NCBI GenBank assembly: GCA_023053545.1
Contig: JAKZAN010000001.1
Location: 10,808,565 to 10,872,564 of the forward strand
From: Lepidurus packardi
Lineage: Eukaryota > Arthropoda > Branchiopoda > Notostraca > Triopsidae
Reading direction: 5' to 3'
Length of the DNA: 64,000 nt
In this document: positions 17,201 through 20,200 of the stretch, piece by piece
Layout of the letters: each line of letters starts with the position of its first letter
Position numbering within the stretch: position 1 is the stretch's first letter
Translations under genes and position numbers: made by a program
Notes under the pieces: generated by a model
Told to the model about the DNA's origin: nothing
Databases searched by the model: none
What the model saw: the letters and a program-made list of their open reading frames with translations, nothing else

Positions 17201-20200
17201 CCCTCTTCCAGCCGAGGATACAATGCATACCGCCCCATCCCGGTGCACGTGAGCATGCCACGAACTGTGGTCCACACCGCGCCTCTGACCAGCGGGTACC
17301 AGCGCCCCGTACTGCGCAATACGGCCACCATAGACGTGGTCAATCGTCCACCGTCGAAGAAAACCCCTCAGCCCGCGCCCTCAGCCCCAGGGGAAGGGTT
17401 AAAGCGCGACTTTAGCGTGGGGACATTGAAAAGAGGGCGTCAGGTCATTCGGCTGCAAACCAAACGCTTGGATGCAGCTTTGGAGCAAGTAGAACTTGAA
17501 AGCAAGGTCCCCGTGAAGCCAGTTGTGGTTAAGAAAACCGCGGGCGAGAAGTTGATGGAGAAGTTTTTAATCCCGCAACGCAGTAATAAGAAGAAATTGC
17601 GACCTTACGGTGGGACGCGCCGTTTGGCTCCGCCCTCACTGTCCCCTCAAGCGCCTGTCGCAGTCAAAGTAGTGACTCCGAAGCCTGTGATGCAGGAAAG
17701 GAGCAAAGAGGAAGGTTGTTTTGTGCTCTGGAGGGCTTTTCTTTTGTCTCTTTGATCTTCGTGTCTATGCTCCGTAAAAGCTCGTTAGTTACCATGAGTC
17801 ATTATTTTGGGCCCTTTGCCATGAATGTTGTTTTTCTCTTTGGGGAGCTTTGATTGGGTTTGTTTGGGATGAGGTTTACTAATGAGGTTTTTCCTTCTGT
17901 CGGGGTCCTGGTGTTTGTCTTTCTTGCAGTTTGCAACGTCAATTGTCACAAGAAGTGCGAACGACATATGCCAAATCTATGCGGCGTGAATCAGAAGCTA
18001 CTGGCTGAAGCCTTGTCTTCCGTAAAAAGAGGTGAGAGACTAACTTTTCCTGTCTAGAAAAGCTAGGTAAAATGATTTCAAGTCTCTTTTCTGTAACGCT
18101 ATTATTTTCATGATTTGAATTCGTAGTTCTTAGTTTATCTAAGTTTGAATTTTCCTAGAATATATTTCTAAGAAATATGGAACTGATATTTTTTTTCATA
18201 AACGACATTGCTTCATTTACTGAGAATGTATGTTCATTGTTTTAAAGGCACTTCCAAAGCGTCTTCTCCGCCTCCTTCGAAGAACAGCGACGATTTGGCG
18301 TCATGTACCAGCACGAGTACAACGCGTACGTCGACCAGCAAAAGTCGTCCGTCTTCTGTGGTGCAGAATTCCAAGTCCTCCTCCAATTCTTCTTCGGGCT
18401 CTTCCGAAACGGACGAAGAAAACGACGACGACGAGGACGAAGCTGCATCTACGATCGCTCCTTTGCGGTCCCAGCCTCCCATCAAAACCAAACCGCGGTT
18501 CCGCAAGTACGGTGCGGAAGATTTCCAATTCCTGAAAGTCCTGGGCAAAGGCAGCTTTGGCAAAGTACTGCATAACGCATTTCGCTATTTTTTTCAGCGA
18601 AAAGCTTTACACATTGTTCTCGTTGTCTATATCATTTGCCTTTTTTAAATCTTTTTAATATACGTATATTATAGGTTTTGCTGGCCGAGTTGAAAGGGAC
18701 GGAATCTTATTTCGCAATCAAGTGCCTCAAGAAAGACGTGGTGCTCGAAGACGACGACGTAGAATGCACCATGATCGAGCGGAAAGTTTTGGCCTTGGGT
18801 ACCAAGCACCCTTATTTATGCCATTTATTCTGCACTTTCCAAACTGAGGTGGATAGCAAGGAATTTCTATAGTTCTGAACGTATATATAAAATAAAATAG
18901 ATAAGAATAAGATAGTATTTTCATAACAAATATTACTAATAATTATCATTATAGTGGTGCTATAGAAAAAATACGTACAATAATTTTCTTCGATGTTCCC
19001 ACAGTCGCATTTGTTTTTTGTGATGGAATATTTGAATGGAGGAGACCTCATGTTTCATATCCAGCAAAGTGGGCGGTTCGACCAGGACCGAGCTCGTTTC
19101 TACGCCGCAGAAATTGTCTCTGGCTTGAAGTTCTTGCATAAGAAAGGCATTGTGTACAGGTATGTTCAAATTTATTCAATAATCTAAAATTCAAGAAAGA
19201 GGAAGAAATGTAAGTAAGAAGATAAAAAGGCAAGTTTTGGACTTTATTATGGAGAAAACCGTCTGCGGTTGGGATTTCTTTTTTACTGCAGAGACTTGAA
19301 ATTGGACAACATATTGTTGGACTATGAAGGCCATGTGCGCATTGCTGACTTTGGCATGTGTAAACTGCAGATCTATTTGGATCGGACGGCTGACACGTTT
19401 TGCGGGACGCCTGATTATATGGCACCCGAAGTAAGGCCGCACAGCAATGACTTGTGACTAACGAAAAGAAATGAAACGAAAAGGAAAGAGACTTAGGAGA
19501 GTTTTCATGTTTCACGACTAACTTTTTGCTGCTGTTGTGGAGTGGTTTTGATTGTTAACAAGTTGACTACAGCATGCAATTTTGTACTACAGCATGTTTT
19601 TTTTTTTTTGTTTTTTTATTCCGTACCAAAACAGGGATATGAAACTAGATAATGTGCTTTTGGACCAAGATGGGCACGTGCGGTTGGCAGATATGGGCAT
19701 GTGTCGTCTCAACATGACCGAAAACTCGTTAGCGTCTACTTTTTGCGGCACTCCTGACTACATTGCACCCGAGGTTTCCTTATTCCCTTACCTTTTATTT
19801 ATTTTCGTTTTATTGCCTGTCCTTCATTTTTCTTTAAAGTGATAATGAACAAGAATCATTTTAACATCTCATTCATTTATCTAATTTTGTGGGAGCTTTT
19901 TGTATTCTTTATATTTTGTCTTACAATCTGTAACAGTTTAAGACGATAGTTAATTCGGAAAACTGTAGAAACATTTATTACCTTATTTTTAGGAAATGTA
20001 CAGGGATTTGACGTAGTTTAAATCAAATTAAGGGTAATGTAGATTTCTGCGTTAAAGCTTATGCGCATTAATGTACAATTCACAACACGTTCTCCGGATT
20101 TAGTTACATACGTACGTAAAGTGTCCCTGGGTCAAACATGACACTAGTGTGTCATAGGCCAACAATGAATTCTTCTTTTTTCAGCTAGTGGAGTGAAAGA

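Follow-up and report, generated by a model that had tools for sequence, protein, structure and literature searches.

Organization of the PKC gene

The window, the whole 64,000-nucleotide stretch of Lepidurus packardi DNA that was analyzed, carries on its forward strand a gene whose predicted domains are those of a novel-type PKC. Exon ends were proposed from the sequence, and combinations of AG acceptors and GT donors were then tested for an open frame. A region at positions 7851..8336 is a candidate for the N-terminal part of the protein. This open reading frame matches part of the C2 domain of delta/epsilon/eta/theta-type PKCs (PF21494; E 9.3e-07, 29.4 bits against a cut-off of 18), covering positions 33-74 of 109 only. 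A search of the genome with the PF21494 model returned no match.

The remaining exons, all on the forward strand, build a PKC from its regulatory half through its C-terminal tail. The exon at 14097..14250 encodes the stretch TRRRGAIK, which we take to be pseudosubstrate-like, and the first part of C1A. The middle of C1A is carried by a micro-exon of 32 nt (14405..14436), and its last part, which is matched by the Pfam C1 model, lies at 15621..15706. The two halves of C1B, both matched by PF00130, are at 15857..15986 and 17930..18031. These are followed by an exon for the hinge and glycine loop (18248..18564), a kinase N-lobe exon (18675..18848) and exon 11 (19005..19159), which ends with KKGIVY and the AG of an Arg codon. 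Downstream of the exon pair are exon 13 (21122..21310), which is in frame with either member of the pair, exon 14 (21402..21542, or ending at 21539), which encodes kinase C-lobe sequence, and the last coding exon (21657..21804), which ends with a TGA stop codon. This last exon contains LTPVDK and FRGFSY, presumably the turn motif and the hydrophobic motif, and is matched by PF00433.

The span from 14097 to 19159 is stop-free in one of the two splice-site combinations tried, and the three exons after exon 12 are stop-free in two of four, which differ by a single Val codon. With either version of exon 12, the frame is open from C1A to the C-terminus, yielding predicted forms of 587 residues. The Pkinase model (PF00069) is matched over positions 2-263 of 263 in both forms, with E 1.5e-64 for 12A and 1.2e-62 for 12B. 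Tandem C1A and C1B domains are recovered as two stretches by PF00130 (E 2.3e-34), and the PKC tail (PF00433, E 2.2e-13) is present in both predicted isoforms, as is characteristic of an AGC kinase with its tail.

When the form with exon 12B was used as the query, the best match among solved structures was PKC-theta (1xjd, E 2.6e-138), with chains other than theta at 8e-127 or worse, and no chain named PKC-delta or PKC-epsilon was present among the 60 matches listed. This match to human PKC-theta suggests that the gene is of the delta/theta type. Used singly, exon 12A is nearest to PKC-beta and exon 12B to PKC-theta.

Several observations were made in and beside the gene. The C1B sequence SLLYGL (15857-15986) contains Tyr at a site that is Trp in mammalian novel PKCs, and the PKC-epsilon-like gene of this genome also has Tyr. 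We take this site to be position 22, the toggle that sets affinity for diacylglycerol. Between the two halves of C1B, the intron contains an open reading frame of 288 residues (16889-17755, forward strand, ATG at 16889), and a GT after 17714 within it is phase-matched to the exon at 17930. This frame could be an alternative first exon, in which case the resulting PKC would lack C2, C1A and half of C1B, or it could be a nested gene. It has no Pfam match, and its first 202 residues have no other match in the genome. Just downstream of the PKC gene, on the opposite strand, is an open reading frame (22927-23769) for a DM13 electron-transfer domain (PF10517, E 1.5e-29).

A tandem pair of activation-segment exons

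Exon 12A (19292..19430) carries the canonical activation segment (RDLKLDN...ADFGMCK), and exon 12B (19635..19773) a divergent one (RDMKLDN...ADMGMCR). Upstream of 12A is intron 11 (19160..19291, 132 nt), whose donor GTATGT is common to both choices. The two copies are separated by an intron of 204 nt (19431..19634), and 12B is separated from exon 13 by an intron of 1348 nt (19774..21121). Each copy is preceded by AG and followed by GT, is entered in phase 2 after the AG of the Arg codon, and is left in phase 0 after APE. On re-measurement, the first-pass annotation proved exact in describing two exons of 139 nt that lie 204 bases apart and enter and leave in these phases. Its statements that each copy spans the catalytic loop, the DxG motif, the activation loop and APE, and that the two are identical at 31 of 47 residues, were likewise borne out by translation and recomputation. 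At the DNA level the copies agree at 85 of 139 positions.

The two exons are neighbors, are homologous and agree in length and phase, as is expected of mutually exclusive exons, and the reading frame favors the same arrangement. Inclusion of both exons reads G-Y-E-T-R-stop and omission of both reads R-L-S-K-D-stop, as evident by translation of each junction, so that neither product would be a functional protein. The stop within six codons predicted earlier for both of these cases was therefore reproduced, and its corollary, that only one copy can be used at a time, agrees with the open frame to the stop codon that either exon gives alone. Because double inclusion and double skipping terminate so early, exclusivity at the protein level would be set at least by the reading frame. 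Among human clusters of mutually exclusive exons, 377 (60%) have lengths that break the frame, according to the accessible portion of one survey (PMC5740500). A choice made by the splicing machinery and one made by frameshift followed by decay would look alike in the DNA.

Residue differences between the two cores

The most conspicuous differences between the two encoded cores lie in conserved motifs, where the DLK and DFG of 12A are DMK and DMG in 12B. Among nine AGC reference sequences, DLK is present in all, DFG in eight and DYG in one, and neither Met is found in any. These substitutions raise the question of whether the core encoded by 12B is a pseudokinase by design, inactive or dominant-negative, which we consider very unlikely. 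Exon 12B keeps the catalytic Asp, Lys and Asn, the Asp and Gly of DxG, the activation-loop Thr, the P+1 stretch and APE, and thus appears competent as judged by its sequence. CDK8 is an active kinase that has Met in place of the DFG Phe, just as 12B does. It belongs to an unrelated kinase group, and its DMG is fixed in the gene, with no choice of isoform. An active 'in' conformation of the CDK8 motif is described in the accessible text of a structural study (PMC9906319). By analogy, Met at the DxG site is compatible with kinase activity.

Half of the residue differences (8 of 16) fall within a nine-residue stretch that immediately precedes the phospho-Thr (P 0.0003). However, this stretch also varies among PKC sequences, holding 4-7 of 8-11 differences in six pairs, and so the clustering is partly ordinary. 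At position -5 from the Thr, 12A has Asp and 12B has Asn, with Glu one step earlier. An acidic residue is present at -5 in PKC-theta and in the conventional-PKC-like gene of this genome, and at -6 in PKC-beta and in its PKC-epsilon-like gene.

Human PKC-delta and PKC-theta are kinases of the same kind whose requirements for loop phosphorylation differ, since PKC-delta tolerates T505A and PKC-theta requires T538, as given in the accessible part of a recent report (PMC10650207). E500 of PKC-delta, the acid at -5, has been credited with making loop phosphorylation dispensable. The same report, however, describes the E500G change as having no effect in yeast and traces the independence of PKC-delta to its A-helix (PMC10650207). 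The acid at -5 is therefore a poor guide, because PKC-theta has one and yet needs T538, and because E500G had no effect. By eye, and without an alignment, no A-helix residues of this sort were seen in the gene. Because these residue rules do not fit the two exons exactly, a functional difference between 12A and 12B is put forward here as a proposal.

Splice sites and the choice between exons

The two exons end in donors of very different quality. Exon 12A has a strong U2-type donor (GTAAGG following GAA; PWM score 7.87). The donor of 12B (GTTTCCTTA, 19774..19782, forward strand) begins with GTTTCC and scores -1.7, which is below all of the 21 others (0.8 to 10.9) in what is a small set, comprising 11 donors from this gene and 10 from paralogs beside that of 12B. 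At +3 the 12B donor has T, whereas each of the other 21 has a purine there. Because this donor is the weakest U2-type site of the 22, use of exon 12B may be rare or under strict regulation, and for the same reason 12A probably serves as the default, with 12B as the exon that is regulated.

A weak donor would also serve an exon that is meant to fail. By this account, 12B is a poison or terminal exon, and its inclusion with 12A or read-through of its donor gives a truncated, decayed or inhibitory product that tunes PKC dose. Both routes do stop early, at the junction described above for double inclusion and at 19840 for read-through. Nevertheless, an exon used in this way would need neither its catalytic residues nor its phase-matched ends, nor constraint that extends to its 3′ end, and the sole AATAAA or ATTAAA in the 1348-nt intron is at 20774, approximately 930 nt beyond the read-through stop. 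We therefore regard this alternative as quite improbable.

The 12B donor also resembles a minor-class site. U12-type introns have the donor consensus RTATCCTT and the branch-point consensus TTCCTTRAY, and GTTTCCTT agrees with the former at 7 of 8 positions, a score of at least 7 being reached, when both strands of the window are counted, by 43 of 6731 GT sites, among them this one. Genes for U12 and U6atac snRNAs are present in the genome, with one match each above the family cut-off. If 12B were to use a U12-type donor and 12A a U2-type donor, then the incompatibility of these sites could by itself enforce the choice. However, the consensus match was noticed post hoc, the +3 position of the 12B donor is T, and one exon 13 acceptor would have to serve both spliceosomes. 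Moreover, the last 32 nt before exon 13 contain no convincing U12 branch point, as 9-mers with an A at the branch positions match at most 5/9 within 18 nt of the exon and 6/9, in a T-rich stretch, at 19 nt. A 7/9 match further upstream lacks an A at the branch positions. Enforcement by two spliceosomes thus seems highly improbable.

Other means of enforcing exclusion were considered. Steric exclusion was rejected as the main cause, as the 204-nt gap between the copies is far longer than the introns of 75 and 57 nt that flank the corresponding exon of the PKC-epsilon-like gene. Since introns of 57 and 75 nt occur at the same places in that gene, an intron of 204 nt should be spliceable. Pairing between introns, of the docking and selector kind, was sought with RNAduplex, with the 1348-nt intron represented by its first and last 200 nt. 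In five tests the observed pairing was no better than that of mononucleotide shuffles (111, 196, 84, 198 and 192 of 200 shuffles at or below the observed value).

The intron between 12B and exon 13 also contains CCTAA-type repeats at approximately 20260-20430. Words of this kind are plentiful near one end of contig C4 (41 in locus L044), but an examination of four chromosome ends revealed no clear telomeric repeat. Across the window, TTAGG (71) and CCTAA (70) are not enriched over the approximately 69 expected by our own estimate.

Origin of the exon pair and selection on its members

The pair reflects tandem exon duplication within this gene, as judged from several features of the sequences. 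In a tree of 11 sequences, 12A and 12B are sisters with support of 95/93, although the alignment has 47 columns and the tree tool flags long rows as unsurely placed, which affects the position of 12B. Nearly all of the change is carried by 12B, whose long branch has a length of 2.72 compared with 0 for 12A in the same tree. Both exons also have in common, at alignment columns 17, 26 and 34, residues that are missing from all nine AGC references. The earlier claim that the pair is a tandem duplicate inside a PKC gene is thus upheld by this sisterhood together with the novel-type PKC domains of the host.

The duplicated unit is an ancestral exon, because the PKC-epsilon-like gene (L011) has a single 139-nt exon with matching boundaries, flanked by introns of 75 and 57 nt. 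By reading of alignments, on which the names of the paralogs also rest, the upstream intron position of exon 12 is in common with a PKN-like gene and the downstream position with Akt-like and conventional-PKC-like genes, and neither is found in atypical-PKC-like and SGK-like genes.

Further copies were sought at several scales. Within the window, tblastn found no third copy (self matches at E 8e-31 and 4e-30, mutual match at 1.6e-20, and all others at E 0.6 or above). No second exon copy is present in nine AGC loci of approximately 3.1 kb each (L010, L011, L013-L016, L021, L027 and L028), and no other side-by-side pair was found when 12A was compared with the genome, which gave 48 matches with E of 1e-5 or below (best 150 of 201 candidates). 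When viral and prokaryotic contigs were scanned with 12B and exon 13, the viral contigs gave no relative, and the prokaryotic contigs likewise gave none, with only two distant kinases at 31-32% identity. The introns that flank the copies have short words of 7-13 nt in common, and nothing longer among the matches listed. A recent tandem copy or an assembly collapse is ruled out by the saturation of silent sites and the agreement of 85 of 139 bases.

A separate observation concerns the PKC-epsilon-like gene, upstream of which lies a second regulatory half (L049, C4:2236353-2246352) with C2 and the C1 region, 93% identical over 1597 nt. No second kinase domain was present in the 10 kb read at this locus, and the extra half may serve as an alternative N-terminus or be a partial pseudogene.

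The pattern of change between 12A and 12B points to old copies whose divergence has been constrained at the level of protein. The 54 nucleotide differences are distributed 15/6/33 over codon positions 1, 2 and 3, dN is 0.32, and dS is saturated (pS 0.87). In a neutral simulation, 53 random changes were introduced into 12A, and none of 20,000 runs kept at least 30 of 46 residues (mean 14.9, maximum 24), while 83% gained a stop. Because no simulated copy was as similar and most acquired stops, selection for protein function has probably acted on both exons for most of the time since they arose. The first-pass reading of the two copies as functional alternatives is consistent with these values.

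This history leaves room for a recent decay of one copy, which may have occurred. The corresponding alternative is that 12A is the sole working exon and that 12B, although its frame is still open, is a relic in decay that enters transcripts seldom or not at all. The donor that is weakest of 22 fits such a relic, and the long branch of 12B also fits relaxed constraint. In addition, two residues that are invariant among the references have been lost in 12B besides one lost jointly with 12A, so that 18 of 21 such columns, the catalytic residues included, are retained. Set against this are the 31 of 47 residues kept despite saturated silent sites, the absence of a stop, the presence of all catalytic motifs, and the retention in 12B of its AG acceptor and exact phase and length. 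A dead exon at such divergence would be expected to carry stops, as did 83% of the simulated ones, unless its decay is recent. On this evidence we consider a relic unlikely, while giving it some weight.

A PKC gene with two predicted catalytic switches

We judge it likely that 12A and 12B form a mutually exclusive exon pair in a novel-type PKC, with 12A encoding the standard core and 12B an active core that is tuned differently. From the features of the locus, we infer that both exons are expressed and spliced in exclusively, that the isoform with 12B is active, and that the two forms differ in function. In this proposal, the tandem duplication affected an ancestral exon of 139 nt, which encodes the segment from the catalytic loop through DFG and the activation loop to the P+1/APE region, and the two copies would have come to be used one at a time. 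Exon 12A would supply a standard PKC core. Exon 12B would supply a core with Met instead of the Phe of DFG and with its own activation-loop sequence just before the conserved phospho-Thr. With one regulatory half and two switches, cells could set the stabilization of the loop, and with it the degree of dependence on activation-loop phosphorylation and perhaps substrate preference.

A broader version of this proposal is more tentative, and we consider it somewhat doubtful. It holds that one PKC gene splices between a DFG core and a CDK8-like DMG core, so as to provide two working catalytic switches that differ in phosphorylation requirement and in substrate or inhibitor preference, independently of their common lipid-sensing half. 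The human delta and theta enzymes provide two genes for two behaviors. Here, one gene would make that choice by splicing, although the residue rules map inexactly onto its exons.

Mutually exclusive exons are known from other kinase genes. The JNK genes (MAPK8/9) likewise encode signaling Ser/Thr kinases with mutually exclusive exons in the kinase domain, but JNK is a CMGC rather than an AGC kinase, and the accessible sources do not place these exons in the DFG or activation segment. They lie after APE. FYN also has tandem duplicated exons, named 7A and 7B. These are mutually exclusive and give isoforms with different binding affinities, but FYN is a tyrosine kinase, and in the accessible text its exons encode the linker between SH2 and kinase domains together with the N-terminal portion of the latter, where the ATP site lies, and do not include the catalytic or activation loop (PMC9741552). 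In neither JNK nor FYN do the accessible descriptions present the splice pair as swapping the catalytic loop, DxG motif and activation loop.

The first-pass annotation also stated that no described PKC gene was known to have this arrangement. No PKC with exchangeable activation-segment exons was found in the open-license literature, among the matches listed. PRKCB, Drosophila Pkc53E and C. elegans pkc-2 encode conventional PKCs, and the duplicated exons of PRKCB encode the C-terminal V5 region (beta I and beta II). Tandem duplicated exons as such are reported for all three of these PKC genes, and the accessible text does not say which exon is involved (PMC9741552). For Pkc53E, the exon location is also not given in the accessible parts of two further articles (PMC11540305, PMC3221684). 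Mutually exclusive exons in kinases such as JNK and FYN, and tandem exons in other PKC genes, are already known. What would be new is the swap of a catalytic core in a PKC.

If the proposal is correct, this gene would offer a natural test of what the activation segment alone decides while the regulatory domains are held constant. The properties concerned would be dependence on phosphorylation of the PDK1 type, DFG dynamics, substrate choice and inhibitor response. Exon duplication would then achieve within a single gene a division that vertebrates achieve with two genes, delta and theta.

A final observation concerns the assembly as a whole. Most of the kinase matches listed (127 of 136; best 128 of 988 candidates) are on small contigs, numbered C73 and above. 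Many of the matches on these contigs read through in-frame TAA or TAG, and TGA occurs in only five among the matches listed. The same pattern is expected of ciliates in which TAA and TAG specify Gln, and these contigs probably derive from a ciliate, either associated with the animal or present as a contaminant.
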